Shown one piece after another: positions 22,071 through 27,558 of a DNA stretch of 64,000 nucleotides; positions within the stretch are counted from its first letter, which is position 1, and each line of letters starts with the position of its first letter. The notes beneath the pieces were generated by a model. The model was not told the DNA's origin and made no database searches. It was given only the letters and a program-made list of their open reading frames with translations. The position numbers were made by a program, and so were the translations under genes. Origin of the DNA: Streptomyces globisporus (lineage in GTDB: Bacteria > Actinomycetota > Actinomycetes > Streptomycetales > Streptomycetaceae); assembly GCA_014649555.1 (NCBI GenBank), contig BMTG01000005.1, forward strand, positions 1-64,000, read 5' to 3'.

Positions 22071-22817
22071 TCAGTCGGAGAGCCGGTGCTGCGCGTAGAC
22101 CGTCAGTGCGTCCCGTACGAAGGCGGCGGTGCCGTCCCCGTAGCGATCGTAGTTCTTTCCGAAGCGCGGATCGGCGACATACATCTCCCCGAGCCCGATC
22201 ACGTACGAACGGCTGGGCTCCTTGGCCGAGGACAGCCAGGCGCAGTGCCGCCGCGCGAGCTCCTGCGCCTCGGGCCCGTCCGGGGCGAGCCCGGCCTCCC
22301 TGGCCCGGCCCCAGTCGCGCGCGATGGCCTCGTGCTCGTCCTGGAAGGCCTTCTTCTCCCCGTCCCCGAGCGAACGCCACCAGCGGTCGCCCTCCTCGTA
22401 CGCGTCCCGGCCCCAGCGCTCGGTGACCTCCTGCTCGTGGGCGGTGTGGTCGAAGCCGTCGAACACCTCAGCGGCCATGAGTTCCATCCCCTCCTGGGTC
22501 TTGTGGAGGGTGGTCCGCACCGAGGCGATCTGCCGTCCGATGCGCGCCTGCTCCTGTTCGAGCAGCCGCAGATGCGCCCGCAGCGCCACCGCCGTGTCCC
22601 GCTGCCCCTCCAGTACGTCCTTGATCGCGGGCAGCGAGAGCCCGAGCTCCCGCAGCAGCAGGATGCGCTGCAGCCGGACGAGGGCGTCCTGGTCGTAGTA
22701 GCGGTAGCCGTTGCTCCCGATCCGGCTCGGCGCGAGGAGACCGAGGTCCCCGTAGTGCCGGAGCGTGCGGCTCGTGGTGCCGGCCCGGCGGGCGATTTCC
22801 TGAATGGACCACTCCAT
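22071..22817 (-). CDS. MerR regulator with TipAS-like C-terminal domain
   Basis: A 248-aa protein. Residues 1-70 are the MerR winged helix (IQEIARRAGTTSRTLRHYGD, then NGYRYYDQDALVRLQRI), followed by the dimer helix to about 115. The C-terminal 130 residues align by eye with TipAS, the thiopeptide-binding domain of S. lividans TipAL (EVTERWG, GLGEMYVADPRF). The TipAL cysteine in CLGEMY that bonds thiostrepton is Gly here, so the ligand or binding mode probably differs. A MerR-type dyad lies just upstream. Confidence 0.88.
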   Translation of the reverse strand: MEWSIQEIARRAGTTSRTLRHYGDLGLLAPSRIGSNGYRYYDQDALVRLQRILLLRELGLSLPAIKDVLEGQRDTAVALRAHLRLLEQEQARIGRQIASVRTTLHKTQEGMELMAAEVFDGFDHTAHEQEVTERWGRDAYEEGDRWWRSLGDGEKKAFQDEHEAIARDWGRAREAGLAPDGPEAQELARRHCAWLSSAKEPSRSYVIGLGEMYVADPRFGKNYDRYGDGTAAFVRDALTVYAQHRLSD

Positions 22818-22912: not shown

Positions 22913-22921
22913 GATCTTCAG

Positions 22922-22995
22922 TAGCGGGGACAGGATTTGAACCTGCGACCTCTGGGTTATGAGCCCAGCGAGCTACCGAGCTGCTCCACCCCGCG
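22922..22995 (-). tRNA. Initiator tRNA-fMet (CAU)
   Basis: 74 nt without encoded CCA. The anticodon loop is CTCATAA, between arms CTGGG and CCCAG, giving the three consecutive G:C pairs diagnostic of initiator tRNA. The first base pair is a C1-U72 mismatch, another initiator mark. T-arm: CAGGTTCAAATCCTG. Confidence 0.95.
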
Positions 22996-23092
22996 TCGAT
23001 GAACACAACTGTACGGCATTCCGGGAGTGCCGTTGACCAATAAGCGGGCCCCCTCCTCCGGTCCGCGTTCCCCCGCCCGGACGAGTACCTTG

Positions 23093-23109
23093 TTGCACAG
23101 AGTTTGCAA
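23093..23109 (+). promoter_or_regulatory. Inverted repeat in the tsaD promoter region
   Basis: TTGCA-cagagtt-TGCAA, a 5-bp dyad in an AT-rich island about 30 bp upstream of the tsaD start. It resembles the TTTGCAA-type sites bound by RamB-like regulators, a fragment of which survives downstream. The link is speculative. Confidence 0.35.
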
Positions 23110-23138
23110 TAACGATCACTGTGCGAGAAGAGGACCCC

Positions 23139-24215
23139 GTGCGGACTCCGGTGGTGCTGGGCATCGAGTCGTCGTGTGACGAGACGGGGGCGGGGATCGT
23201 CTCCGGCGGCCGTCTGCTCGCGCACGTCGTGGCGTCGAGCATGGACGAGCACGCCCGTTACGGCGGGGTGGTGCCGGAGATCGCCGCCCGGGCCCACCTC
23301 CAGGCGTTCACCCCCGTCGTCCAGAAGGCCCTGGCGCAGGCGGGGCTCGGGGTGCGGGACATCGACGCCGTCGCGGTGACCACAGGGCCCGGTCTGTCCG
23401 GGGCGCTTCAGGTCGGTCTGGCCGGCGCGAAGTCCCTGGCGTACGCGGCGGGGGTGCCGCTGTACGGGGTGCACCACCTGGCCGGGCACGTGGCCGCCGA
23501 CACCCTGGAGCACGGGCCGCTGCCCGACCCGTGCATGGTGCTCATCGTCTCCGGCGGCCACACCTCGCTGCTGCTCGTGCGCGACCTGGTGCGCGATCCG
23601 ATCCTGCACCTGGGCGACACCGTGGACGACGCCGCGGGCGAGTGCTTCGACAAGGTCGCCCGGGTCTTCGCGCTCCCGTACCCGGGCGGGCCGGCCATCG
23701 ACCGGGCCGCCCGCGAGGGAAATCCCTGTGCCGTCGCCTTCCCCCGGCCGCTGCTGGGGTCGAAGGACGACCCGTACGCGTTCTCCTTCTCCGGGCTGAA
23801 GACCGCCGCCGCCCGCTGGGCCGAGCAGCACCGGCTGCGCGGCGAGGACATCCCGCTGGCCGACGGGGCGGCTTCCCTCCAGGAGGCCGTCGCGGACGTC
23901 CTGACGCGCAAGGCGCTGGCCGCCTGCCGCCAGTACGACGTGCGCACCCTGGTCGTGGTCGGCGGGGTCGCGGCGAACTCCCGGGTCCGGGCCCTGGCCG
24001 AGGAGCGGTGCGCGGCGGCGGGCGTCGAGCTGCGGGTGCCGCCGCTGACCCTGTGCACCGACAACGGGGCGATGATCGCCGCCGTCGGCGACCTGTTGGT
24101 ACGAGCCGGCGCCGACCCGGCCCAGCTGAACGTGTCCTTCGACCCGTCGGCGCCGTTGGAGTACGCCGCGCTGCACCCGGTGGCCACGCCGGGACGGGCG
24201 GCGAGAGCCGCGTGA
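23139..24215 (+). CDS. tsaD: tRNA N6-adenosine threonylcarbamoyltransferase, probable paralogue
   Basis: About 358 aa from GTG at 23139 (AGAGGA just upstream; GTG at 23121 possible). All core motifs are intact: [10 protein letters not shown], metal-binding [39 protein letters not shown] and [10 protein letters not shown]. The family transfers threonylcarbamoyl to A37 of ANN-decoding tRNAs. By memory the housekeeping Streptomyces tsaD lies with tsaB/rimI near groES, whereas here it is followed 63 bp later by a full alanyl-tRNA synthetase. That points to a second, probably acquired copy. TsaB/E partners are not encoded nearby. Confidence 0.85.
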
Positions 24216-24278
24216 GCGGTGTGATGCCGCGCCCGGATTTCCCCTGGTGACCGACCGAAGGACTTAAGAGGACCGCTT

Positions 24279-26930
24279 GTGCGTACCGCCGACATCCGCA
24301 GCCGCTTCCTGGACTTCTTCGCCGCCCGGGGCCACACCGTCGTCCCCAGCGCGCCCCTGCCGACCCCCGACCCGACCCTGCTGTTCGTCAACGCGGGCAT
24401 GGTGCCGTTCAAGCCGTACTTCACCGGTGAGGCGGCCCCGCTGTGGGAGCGGGCCACCAGCGTGCAGAAGTGCGTGCGGACCCTGGACATCGAGGAGGTC
24501 GGCCGCACCACCCGGCACGGCTCGTTCTTCCAGATGAACGGCAACTTCTCCTTCGGCGACTACTTCAAGGAAGGGGCCATCGCCTACGCCTGGGAGCTGT
24601 CGACGAGCCCGCAGGGCGAGGGCGGCTACGGGCTGGACCCCGACAGGATCTGGGTGACCGTCCACCACTCCGACACCGAATCGCGCGGTATCTGGCGGCG
24701 GGTCGCGGGCCTGCCCGACGAGCGGATCGTGGACCGGGGCGACGAGGACAACTTCTGGTCCATGGGCGTCCCCGGACCGTGCGGGCCCTGCTCCGAGCTG
24801 TACTACGACCGCGGCCCGGCCCTCGGCCGGGAAGGCGGTCCGGCGGTCGACGAGGACCGGTACATGGAGTTCTGGAACCTGGTCTTCATGCAGTACGAGC
24901 GCGGCCCGGGCCCCGGCAAGTCCGGCTACCCGATCCTCGGGGAGCTGCCCCGCCGCAACATCGACACCGGCATGGGCCTGGAACGGATGGCGACCCTCCT
25001 CCAGGGCGTCGACAACCTCTACGAGATCGACGAGACCCGCCCCGTCCTCCAGCGCGCCGCCGACCTGGCCGACGTCCGCTACGGGGCTGATCCGGAGGCC
25101 GACGTACGGCTGCGGGTCGTCGCCGACCACGTCCGTACGGCCCTGATGCTCCTCGCCGACGGCACCACCCCCGGCAACGAGGGCCGCGGCTACGTCCTGC
25201 GCCGCATCCTGCGCCGCGCGGTCCGCTCCATGCGGCTGCTGGGCTACGAGGACCTGGCGCTGACCGAACTGCTGCCGGTGGCCCGCGACTGCATGGCGCC
25301 GAGCTACCCGGAGGTCGCCGACGCCTATCCCCGTATCGCCGATCAGGCCGGGGCCGAGGAGGACGCCTTCCGCTCCTCCCTCAAGCAGGGCACCACCGTC
25401 CTGGACACCGCCGTCGCCCGGGTCAAGGAGAGCGGCGGCCGGCTGCTGCCCGGCGCCCAGGCGTTCCTGCTGCACGACACGTACGGCTTCCCCATCGACC
25501 TGACCCTGGAGATGGCCGCCGAGCAGGGCGTCGAGGTCGACCGCGAGGGCTTCACCGCGCTGATGAACGAGCAGCGTGAGCGGGCCCGCGCGGACGCCCG
25601 CGCCCGCAAGGCCGGCGGGGCCGTGGACACCACTGCCCTGCGCCCGGTCCTGGACGCGCACGGGCCGACCGACTGGCGGGCCTGGGACACCCTGGAGACC
25701 GAGTCCCGTGTCCTCGCGCTGCTCGGCCCGGCCGGCCCGGTGCCGGTGGCCCGTACCGGGGACATCGTCACCGTCGTCCTGGACCGCACGCCGTTCTACG
25801 CCGAGTCCGGCGGCCAGGACAGCGACGCCGGGCTGTTGTCCGGTACGTCGGTCGAGGCCGAGGTCCTCGACGTCCAGCGCCCGCTGCCCGGCCTGGTCGC
25901 CCACCAGGTCCGGATCACCGCGGGCGAACTCGCCCTGGACGACACCGTGCACGCGGCCGTCGACGCCGAGTGGCGGCTCGGCGCCCGCCAGGCCCACTCC
26001 GGCACCCATGTCCTGCACGCCGCCCTGCGCGAGATCCTCGGCCCCACCGCGCTCCAGGCCGGGTCCTACAACCGGCCCGGCTACCTGCGCCTCGACTTCC
26101 CCTGGCGCGGCGGCCTGTCCGCGACCGTCCGCAGCGAGATCGAGGAGGCCGCCAACCGCGCCCTGCGCCGCGATCTGCCGGTCGGTGTGCGGTGGATGAC
26201 CCTGCCCGAGGCGAAGGAGATCGGCGCGCTCGCCCTCTTCGACGAGACGTACGGGGAGAAGGTGCGCGTCGTCGAGATCGGCGGGGCCTGGTCCCGGGAG
26301 CTGTGCGGCGGTACGCATGTGGAGCGGGCGGCCCAGATCGGCACGGTCGCGCTGACCTCGGAGGGCTCGGTCGGCGCGGGCATGCGCCGCCTGGAGGCGG
26401 CCGTGGGCATCGAGGGGTTCGGCTACCTGGCCCGCGAGCGGGACCTGGTGGCGCGGATCGCGGAGCAGCTCGGGGCACCGCGCGCCGAGCTGCCCGACCG
26501 GATCGCCGGCCTCCTGGACCGGCTCAAGGCGGCCGACCGGGAGAACGCCCGGCTCAAGCAGCAGGCCACCACCGCACGCGCGGGCGAACTCGCCGAAGCG
26601 GCGGGCGAGGCGAATGGCGTGCGGATCGTTACCACGACGGCGGACGGCAGCGCCCAGGAGGCCCGCGCGCTCGCCCTGGCCGTCCGCGACCGGCTGCCCG
26701 GCGGCGTACCCGGCGCGGTGGCGGTCGGCACGGAGGACGGGGCTCTCGTCCTCGCGCTGAACGGCACGGCCCGGGAAGCGGGCCTGAGCGCTTCCCGGTT
26801 GGTGAAGCAGCTTCTCGGCGGCCGCGGCGGCGGCTCCGCGGAGGTCGCCCAGGGCGGCGGTCTCGGGCCCGGCGGGGTCTCCGACGCGCTGGCGGCCCTG
26901 CCGGCGGTGATCGCCACCGCCACCGACTGA
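24279..26930 (+). CDS. alaS: Alanyl-tRNA synthetase, probable second copy
   Basis: An 883-aa, full-length enzyme. Class II motif 2 region is HGSFFQMNGNFSFGDYFKEG; motif 3 is GMGLERMATLLQ; the tRNA-recognition region has RRILRRAVR. The editing domain has intact zinc ligands HSGTHVLHA and CGGTHVE. The C-Ala coiled coil and domain are complete. GTG at 24279 has AGAGGA 6 nt upstream. The N-terminus MRTADIRSRFLDFFAARGH differs from the housekeeping Streptomyces enzyme as I recall it. The gene lies far from the usual alaS context, so it is inferred to be a paralogue, possibly drug-resistant or condition-specific. Confidence 0.88.
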   Translation: MRTADIRSRFLDFFAARGHTVVPSAPLPTPDPTLLFVNAGMVPFKPYFTGEAAPLWERATSVQKCVRTLDIEEVGRTTRHGSFFQMNGNFSFGDYFKEGAIAYAWELSTSPQGEGGYGLDPDRIWVTVHHSDTESRGIWRRVAGLPDERIVDRGDEDNFWSMGVPGPCGPCSELYYDRGPALGREGGPAVDEDRYMEFWNLVFMQYERGPGPGKSGYPILGELPRRNIDTGMGLERMATLLQGVDNLYEIDETRPVLQRAADLADVRYGADPEADVRLRVVADHVRTALMLLADGTTPGNEGRGYVLRRILRRAVRSMRLLGYEDLALTELLPVARDCMAPSYPEVADAYPRIADQAGAEEDAFRSSLKQGTTVLDTAVARVKESGGRLLPGAQAFLLHDTYGFPIDLTLEMAAEQGVEVDREGFTALMNEQRERARADARARKAGGAVDTTALRPVLDAHGPTDWRAWDTLETESRVLALLGPAGPVPVARTGDIVTVVLDRTPFYAESGGQDSDAGLLSGTSVEAEVLDVQRPLPGLVAHQVRITAGELALDDTVHAAVDAEWRLGARQAHSGTHVLHAALREILGPTALQAGSYNRPGYLRLDFPWRGGLSATVRSEIEEAANRALRRDLPVGVRWMTLPEAKEIGALALFDETYGEKVRVVEIGGAWSRELCGGTHVERAAQIGTVALTSEGSVGAGMRRLEAAVGIEGFGYLARERDLVARIAEQLGAPRAELPDRIAGLLDRLKAADRENARLKQQATTARAGELAEAAGEANGVRIVTTTADGSAQEARALALAVRDRLPGGVPGAVAVGTEDGALVLALNGTAREAGLSASRLVKQLLGGRGGGSAEVAQGGGLGPGGVSDALAALPAVIATATD

Positions 26931-26936
26931 TCCGCG

Positions 26937-27337
26937 CCACGGGTGCTGGTCCGGAGCGATCGCCAGTCGGCCGCCCGCCGGGGCCCGGGCCGGCGGGGCG
27001 CAGTCGCGGCGTTCGCAGACGCGGCAGCAGCCCGGGCCGATCGGGGTCGCCGCCCGGGAGTCGTCGAGGGCAACGCCTTCGGCGTAGACGAGACGGCGGG
27101 CGTGGCGGAGTTCGCAGCCGAGGGCGACCGCGAACTCGGCACGCGGGGCGTGGTGGCTGTAGCCGCCCCGGGTGATCGTGCGGGCGACCCAGAAGTAGCG
27201 CTTGCCGTCGGGCATGTCGGCGACCTGGCTCAGGGTGCGGCCGGGCGCGGAGAACGCCTCGTAGACCGTCCGCAGGGGACACGTACCGCCGAGGCGGGAG
27301 CAGGGGAAGTCGGTAGCGGACTGCCGTTTGGAGATGG
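26937..27337 (-). pseudogene. C-terminal remnant of a RamB/ScfR-type regulator
   Basis: About 130 codons read without a stop on the minus strand from KRQSATDFPCSRLGGTCPL through YEAFSAPGRTL, MPDGKRYFWVARTITRG and the Cys-rich end GCCRVCERRDCAPPA. This is the C-terminal (DUF2083) part of XRE/IrrE-type regulators of short-chain acyl-CoA metabolism. The HTH and central domains (about 350 residues) are gone; the left end runs into the 3' end of alaS, so the last residues are also lost. No usable start remains. Confidence 0.75.
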
Positions 27338-27346
27338 TCCCGGCCC

Positions 27347-27558
27347 GAGGCCCGCACCGACCCGGACTTCGTCCTCATCGCCCGTACGGACGCCATCGCG
27401 AACTCGGCTACCTGCTGATCGTCGTCCCCCCGAACCTCCAGCGCGCGATGATCACCGCGGTCCTGCGCACGCTGGGGGCCATCAACCGTGACCGCGACAG
27501 CGGCGCCGTCCGCGAGCGGATCGTGCGCACGGCGGAGTATCTGGCGATCGGGTCCTGA
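27347..27558 (+). pseudogene. Remnant of an isocitrate lyase / PEP mutase family gene
   Basis: The first piece, in one frame, reads EARTDPDFVLIARTDAIA (27347-27400), the conserved substrate-loop region of (methyl)isocitrate lyases. From about 27397 the next frame continues as RELGYLLIVVPPNLQRAM and on to a C-terminal stop at 27558. So both the N-terminal part and about 80 internal codons are missing, the latter with a frameshift. It starts 10 bp from the regulator remnant, head to head. Confidence 0.65.

Follow-up and report, generated by a model that had tools for sequence, protein, structure and literature searches.

A second tsaD-alaS pair behind a putative Nur-type operator in Streptomyces globisporus, predicted to be a nickel-limitation operon

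The stretch of DNA analysed here (the window) comprises positions 1 to 64,000 of contig BMTG01000005.1 of Streptomyces globisporus. It carries a complete gene for TsaD, the transferase of N6-threonylcarbamoyladenosine (t6A) synthesis, and a complete gene for alanyl-tRNA synthetase (AlaRS), in the same orientation and 63 bp apart, which we designate tsaD2 and alaS2 (Table 1). TsaD2 scores 403 bits against the curated NCBIfam cut-off of 296 for the TsaD equivalog TIGR03723, and its closest matches in the Protein Data Bank (PDB) are TsaD proteins; AlaRS2 scores 758 bits against the cut-off of 457 for the alanyl-tRNA synthetase equivalog TIGR00344. The metal and catalytic motifs are whole, with HLAGH and TDN in TsaD2 (the HxxxH and D ligands) and HSGTH and CGGTH in AlaRS2 (the zinc ligands of the editing domain). 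A sequence-only reading of this DNA had described the pair as complete, co-oriented and intact in its motifs, and the coordinates, curated cut-offs and motif check agree with it. On inspection of the sequence, the GTG at 23139, which is preceded by an AAGAGGA-like ribosome site, is a likelier tsaD2 start than position 23121.

Table 1. The tsaD2-alaS2 module and its immediate neighbours in the window.
Feature	Position	Strand	Basis or remark
Putative Nur-type operator, 24-bp palindrome TTGTTGCACAGAGTTTGCAATAAC	23090..23113	.	core TTGCAC-AGAGT-TTGCAA at 23093-23109
tsaD2, second t6A transferase TsaD	23139..24215 (ORF open from 23121)	+	TIGR03723 and tree
alaS2, second full-length alanyl-tRNA synthetase, aminoacylation and editing domains	24279..26930	+	TIGR00344 and tree
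Initiator-type tRNA-Met(CAT)	22921..22995	-	neighbour of the operon, outside the module
ScfR/RamB-type regulator remnant, downstream of alaS2	26934..27215	-	PF09856, 1.4e-27; outside the module

A palindrome lies 25 bp upstream of the likely tsaD2 start and has no mismatch to a pattern that was drawn solely from the upstream regions of tsaD2 and alaS2 in unrelated neighbourhoods. Nur is a repressor of the Fur family that governs nickel responses. The core of the palindrome is one mismatch away from TTGCAA-N5-TTGCAA and is thus of the type expected of a Nur-regulon operator; the published Nur box is tTGCaa-N5-ttGCAA (PMC3919588). Allowing at most 3 mismatches, the pattern found only two further places in the window's own genome (G000, 8.25 Mb in 58 contigs), and the reversed-pattern control found none. 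One place lies about 50 bp before the gene for a NikA-like binding protein (2 mismatches) and the other about 40 bp before sodF (3 mismatches). Both genes were named by inspection, and a homologue of the NikA-like protein (L220) has nickel_nikA as its best NCBIfam match, under that model's cut-off. Nickel-bound Nur represses sodF and nikABCDE (PMC7055735). Because the pattern had been built from tsaD2 and alaS2 regions alone, its return to nikA-like and sodF genes is an independent result. The sequence-only reading had missed this operator, as it had the linkage of the pair, described below, to peptide deformylase, sodF and nickel transporters. The sequences show two extra genes that are intact, diverged long ago from their housekeeping counterparts and go with a Nur-type operator. 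We consider it probable that tsaD2-alaS2, or tsaD2-GNAT-alaS2 in several relatives, is a nickel-limitation operon of working isoenzymes that Nur would release when nickel is scarce; binding by Nur, induction at low nickel and the reason for such a switch are what we infer from the operator and its distribution.

The copy number of the two genes was established in the same genome. A search with PF01411 found a second full AlaRS at C8:329107, and a search with PF00814 found a second TsaD at C1:978298, with a TsaB-like gene directly upstream. The window tsaD and alaS are extra copies, and the housekeeping genes (tsaD1 and alaS1) lie on other contigs, apart from each other, as expected if the pair is an accessory set. 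The window and housekeeping copies share 62% identity for TsaD and 54% for AlaRS. Among 150 Streptomyces genomes, a window-type AlaRS (at least 78% identity) occurred in 11, the remaining matches among those listed having 53-55% identity, and a window-type TsaD (at least 78% identity) in 39. The adjacency is not general in Streptomyces, and neither of the two findings named beforehand as refuting an accessory pair, sole copies or an ancestral adjacency, was made. tsaD2 was present in 10 of the 11 alaS2 genomes (hypergeometric P 5e-6, kinship ignored). The two genes are adjacent in eight of the 11, separated by one acetyltransferase gene in G088 and split in G051, and tsaD2 is absent from G094. 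The commoner form is tsaD2 without alaS2, which was found in 29 of the 150 genomes, that is, in 29 of the 39 tsaD2 carriers.

These counts bear on the earlier proposal that a second AlaRS could confer resistance to an AlaRS inhibitor. In its fuller form, AlaRS2, together with TsaD2 and a GNAT acetyltransferase, would tolerate an antibiotic resembling alanyl-adenylate, in the manner of AcmD from the ascamycin producer. AcmD is indeed a resistant second AlaRS (PMC12945691), and a GNAT gene stands between tsaD2 and alaS2 in eight loci (L097:9372-9947 and seven more). However, the operator is that of nickel genes, the form without alaS2 is the commoner one and carries the same operator in all 28 checkable loci, and no biosynthetic genes were seen to recur beside the pair in a comparison of neighbours over flanks of about 5-10 kb, made with no cluster-finding program. 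We therefore regard a resistance module as very improbable. GNAT genes also stand 3' of tsaD2 in some genomes without alaS2 (L279, L295, L297, L298 and L300).

Further AlaRS-like genes were seen in passing. A third AlaRS-like open reading frame (ORF) of the same genome, of 398 aa and comprising the catalytic part only (L003:1480-2676, equal to G000:C1:1234796-1235974), resembles in its build AcmF (370 aa) of ascamycin synthesis; no ascamycin-type cluster lies within the 4.2 kb of its locus. Short ORFs resembling it occur in G150, G152 and G155. S. alkaliterrae has a third full-length AlaRS (L210, G157:C21:6273-7940), which is very divergent, with an end branch of 1.4 changes per site.

A wider scan with one genome per species, from which 80 loci were taken in, added Kitasatospora, Streptantibioticus, Actinomadura, Nonomuraea, Streptosporangium and Actinoplanes to the carriers. 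Within Streptomyces, S. cinnamoneus (L102) and S. abikoensis (L107) have the operon as well. The gene order varies among the carriers: Nonomuraea and Actinomadura litoris have the two genes in divergent orientation, Actinoplanes has alaS2 ahead of tsaD2, and in Streptosporangium the two stand apart. That the linkage outlives such changes of order speaks for a shared role. The sequence-only reading had taken the pair for a module inserted beside the initiator tRNA gene. It does recur as a unit in different neighbourhoods, but most other genomes have different genes around tsaD2, and the two genes occur in many contexts besides this one, so that this insertion spot is not a general one. tsaD2 stands back to back with cobalamin methyltransferase-like genes, named by inspection, at L041, L044, L104, L107, L108, L110, L111, L288, L296 and L298, and this spot is perhaps the older location of tsaD2 in part of Streptomyces.

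The operator was followed into other genomes, and 38 of the 43 scanned had a match with at most 3 mismatches. The first-listed site was read in 29 of these 38, the genes behind it being named by inspection with examples only checked against models. The sites precede tsaD2 (10), sodF (8), a sodF-like fragment (1), a NicT-type nickel transporter gene (3), a NikA-like gene (2) and a CbiM-like gene (1, its match being under the model cut-off); the rest stand before a CooC/ArsA-like ATPase gene named by no model (2), before an ABC ATPase gene (1) or before nothing (1). Eight of the ten tsaD2-preceding sites come from genomes chosen as operon carriers, and the other two (L230 and L235) from genomes picked for lacking alaS2. 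In the 28 tsaD2-only loci with a called start, drawn from 29 genomes, the box scores at least 13 every time, in varied contexts, and 6 of 636 other upstream regions reach the same score. The box is kept across different gene orders and in four families.

Both trees were built by quick searches with no bootstrap, from 78 TsaD and 89 AlaRS proteins. In the former, the TsaD2 proteins of Streptomycetaceae, Streptosporangiaceae, Thermomonosporaceae and Micromonosporaceae stand on one side of a branch with SH-aLRT support of 100, and the 19 housekeeping TsaD proteins, several of them from the same genomes, fall apart from that side. In the latter, AlaRS2 of Streptomycetaceae and of the Streptosporangium/Actinomadura group forms one clade, which groups with AlaRS proteins of Glycomyces, Micromonosporaceae and an Acidimicrobiales metagenome-assembled genome, not with the AlaRS1 of Streptomyces; AlaRS2 of Actinoplanes pairs with the AlaRS of Phytohabitans. 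On these trees the module is old and patchily kept, and alaS2 was probably acquired from another actinobacterial line.

Evidence of a different kind comes from four genomes (G135, G113, G157 and G167) that yielded no housekeeping tsaD. Two of these are drafts, G135 of 550 contigs and G113 of 480. In both, another gene stands 3' of tsaB-rimI, where tsaD1 is expected, this place being near a contig end in G135. The housekeeping alaS is missing from both as well, and its upstream neighbours directly abut ruvX on one contig; in G043 and G121, taken for comparison, alaS lies directly before ruvX. All 44 genomes with two tsaD copies have the box upstream of tsaD2 (Actinoplanes has it upstream of the whole operon), in various neighbourhoods, and the four with tsaD2 alone all lack it (Fisher p 5e-6, kinship uncorrected); for genomes of the genus, "two copies" means two matches counted, the second not having been read in each. 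This table of 48 genomes omits G078, in which the tsaD2 start was uncalled, and G158, in which tsaD2 is a fragment, and includes G174 and G172, added by hand; G150-G152, G154, G155, G159-G163, G165 and G166 stand outside the comparison of tsaD1. No operator match was found anywhere in the four genomes, and among the 43 scanned only G031 was likewise without one. The idea that a genome with a single AlaRS copy always lacks the box proved false: G157 and G167 have no box and keep alaS1, and G156 shows only alaS2 and keeps the box. The split follows tsaD1, not alaS1.

We also looked for the regulator in this lineage. In the part of G167 that was read (C9:540001-1736474, about a fifth of the genome), nur was not at its syntenic place (best tblastn E 0.64). 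The genes that in the relative G005 lie 25 kb to one side of nur are present in order, and those on its other side were not found in the read part, so that the place is anchored by one flank only; in G005 itself, the gene in the expected nur place matches 3EYY (S. coelicolor Nur) with E 4.5e-83. The motif HC[DE]LPCG of the nickel superoxide dismutase (Ni-SOD) had no match in G167 C9 from 560001 on, and the gene may lie elsewhere. G167 keeps, at about C9:881264, a CooC/ArsA-like ATPase gene of the kind that stands beside the operator in L217 and L224.

If the housekeeping copies are indeed gone, TsaD2, and in two genomes AlaRS2 too, must be able to act as a general enzyme. TsaD2 is the sole TsaD found in four genomes, which is an indirect sign that it may make t6A in vivo. 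Loss of Nur control could have left tsaD2-alaS2 permanently on and thereby made the housekeeping genes dispensable in this lineage. The same split bears on a further alternative, namely that the pair is a laterally acquired passenger with no special role and a promoter resembling the Nur box by chance. Its patchy distribution would suit a passenger, as would decaying copies such as an alaS2 with an internal stop (genome of L115) and a partial tsaD2 (L101). A chance resemblance would not explain why the box is kept with different gene orders in four families and absent in just the genomes where tsaD2 is the only copy found, and we give this alternative next to no credence.

The nickel-limitation operon that we propose would work as follows. 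When nickel is ample, nickel-bound Nur on the palindrome would repress the operon, and the housekeeping TsaD and AlaRS would do the work. When nickel is short, Nur would release the operon along with sodF and the nickel uptake genes, and TsaD2 and AlaRS2 would then replace or supplement t6A synthesis and the charging of tRNA with alanine. Of the earlier suggestion that the pair may alter decoding under stress, what survives is only the stress, which we predict to be a shortage of nickel. Both TsaD and peptide deformylase depend on a metal, and AlaRS carries a zinc site. By analogy with the replacement of Ni-SOD by the iron enzyme (Fe-SOD), the likeliest reason for nickel control is a metal swap, in which the second enzymes would work with another metal, with tighter binding or at higher dosage, a metal state that their housekeeping counterparts cannot maintain without nickel. 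In a bolder version, peptide deformylase and the two housekeeping enzymes would be loaded with nickel or supported by it in vivo, and Nur would swap in nickel-free isoenzymes, just as Fe-SOD takes over from Ni-SOD. If so, nickel would be a cofactor of essential protein-synthesis enzymes; we think this doubtful. We looked for lost zinc or iron ligands in the second copies and found none. A fixed N118H change beside the TsaD metal ligands was also dropped as a guide to the metal, solved structures showing NHVEAH (u106510) and HHMEGH (u74629).

It has also to be considered that nickel serves merely as a clock. Nickel depletion would mark late growth, and Nur would be a timer raising t6A and Ala-tRNA capacity with the same metal chemistry. 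This would agree with the retention of all metal ligands, with the derepression of the Nur regulon in later phases of batch culture (PMC3919588) and with a dosage role proposed for some paralogs under the zinc regulator Zur that keep their zinc ligands (PMC2770081). However, the deep divergence of the second copies (62% and 54% identity, and the TsaD2 branch with support of 100) and the change to a sole copy in one lineage suggest distinct enzymes, and control of dosage or growth phase alone seems to us distinctly improbable.

Several other genera show further genes linked to the pair. The Actinoplanes locus (L125) opens with a divergent gene for peptide deformylase; then come alaS2 and tsaD2, with a small ORF between them, and after these a ureG-like gene and sodF, which a second small ORF parts from the genes of a FecCD-type ABC transporter. 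Weak boxes (scores 12-13) lie upstream of alaS2, of sodF (at 45 bp) and of the ABC genes (at about 420 bp). The end of tsaD2 is overlapped by a peptide deformylase gene in Nonomuraea. A gene for a NicO-family nickel transporter lies 3' of alaS2 in Streptantibioticus, and Kitasatospora has homologues of this transporter and of sodF downstream, with a box nearby. In Actinomadura litoris, a Fur-family gene with its own weak box lies 3' of alaS2, and its product has 3EYY as its best PDB match (E 2.8e-9; the next at 1.8e-7).

The main rival to the metal swap starts from these links. Peptide deformylase is an oxidant-sensitive iron enzyme. If lack of nickel makes Ni-SOD fail, superoxide could strike translation enzymes that depend on mononuclear iron or thiols (peptide deformylase, TsaD and AlaRS), and Nur would induce sturdier copies together with sodF. 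The operator shared with sodF, the co-location of sodF in Actinoplanes and the linkage of peptide deformylase in Nonomuraea and Actinoplanes are consistent with such a back-up. So is the lack or rarity of thiols at two places: a cysteine near the TsaD metal site is present in 16 of 19 TsaD1 and in 0 of 59 TsaD2 proteins, and a cysteine in what we take to be motif 2 of AlaRS in 23 of 27 AlaRS1 and 2 of 35 AlaRS2 proteins. However, two other cysteines of TsaD2 are mostly absent from TsaD1 (52 of 59 against 4 of 19, and 55 of 59 against 0 of 19), and the motif-2 cysteine is lacking in 4 of the 27 AlaRS1 proteins as well. No oxidant-regulator site was noticed, in an analysis that made no search aimed at one. 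The cysteines, being mixed in their pattern, were rejected as an explanation, and we hold the oxidative back-up to be unlikely.

Several observations weigh against the nickel-limitation operon. In G000, the strict form TTGCAA-N5-TTGCAA at no more than 1 mismatch matches, besides the window site, a single unread place (C3:171851); its matches are no more than those of the reversed control, and it misses nikA and sodF. The strict consensus was dropped as a search pattern, and the case for Nur rests on the wider palindrome. Across the 43 genomes this palindrome gave 129 matches against 43 for the reversed pattern, so that about one third is expected by chance at 3 mismatches. Of four loci with a solitary alaS2, two have a clear box (L040 and L114), one a weak box (L119) and one none (L042). 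The nur gene of G000 was not located, though no completed search stands behind this. The sodF of S. griseus is controlled by SrnR/SrnQ (PMC7055735), so that the protein bound to the operator could be another one in certain species. The genomes that lack tsaD1 group together as a clade in the AlaRS2 tree, and in the TsaD2 tree they fall into two pairs whose forks are weakly supported; the four are probably one clade, so that the split of 44 and 4 may be a single event. All known metal ligands are kept in TsaD2 and AlaRS2, so that a metal change cannot be read from the sequence, and any change would be one of metal choice, affinity, stability or dosage. Finally, we know of no link of nickel to TsaD or AlaRS. 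In our judgement the clean loss of alaS1, which argues for the proposal, and the weak strict consensus, which argues against it, roughly balance.

The immediate surroundings of the pair in the window can be described briefly. The neighbouring tRNA-Met(CAT) is of the initiator type on inspection, by its C1 and CTGGGCTCATAACCCAG anticodon arm. The debris that the sequence-only reading had seen beside the pair is real: it is the tail of a ScfR/RamB-type (short-chain acyl-CoA) regulator, covering profile positions 63-150 of the 157 of PF09856, the rest being gone. A MerR regulator gene with a TipAS antibiotic-recognition domain, at 22071-22817 on the minus strand, adjoins the initiator tRNA gene.

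If the proposal is true, nickel status reaches actinomycete protein synthesis through tRNA modification, tRNA charging and, in some lineages, peptide deformylation. It turns the metal actually used in vivo by TsaD, AlaRS and deformylase into a testable question, and the lineage that lacks the Nur-type operator and keeps only TsaD2 offers a natural experiment. We found no report of Nur- or nickel-controlled TsaD or AlaRS in the literature searched, which misses most subscription journals.

The closest known systems are the spare enzymes under Zur. Second copies of PyrC, HemB, HisI, ThrRS, CysRS, QueD and DksA are Zur-controlled, as in the ThrS1/ThrS2 pair of Anabaena, and several keep their ligands (PMC2770081, PMC4787780). 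The module described here is like them in placing a second essential metal-using enzyme, aminoacyl-tRNA synthetases and tRNA-modification enzymes included, behind an operator of the Fur-family type, and unlike them in its nickel (Nur-type) operator and its actinomycete hosts; TsaD, AlaRS and peptide deformylase are outside the Zur list in the available parts of these two papers. With the Nur regulon of S. coelicolor (sodF and nikABCDE, with sodN affected indirectly), it shares the operator sequence and, in relatives, the linkage to sodF and nickel uptake genes. The targets described there are superoxide dismutases and nickel transport (PMC7055735), whereas here they would be enzymes of protein synthesis. 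Like AcmD and AcmF of the ascamycin cluster (PMC4257720, PMC12945691), alaS2 is an extra AlaRS gene in Streptomyces, but AcmD lies in a nucleoside cluster and serves self-resistance, whereas alaS2 is paired with tsaD2 downstream of an operator of the nickel type, and no cluster of that sort was seen next to it. Compared with the housekeeping TsaD and AlaRS, the second enzymes belong to the same families and have the same catalytic motifs and metal ligands, and TsaD2 forms a separate ancient branch. What appears new is the extension of metal-regulated spare enzymes to nickel and to TsaD and AlaRS, the zinc counterpart being already known.

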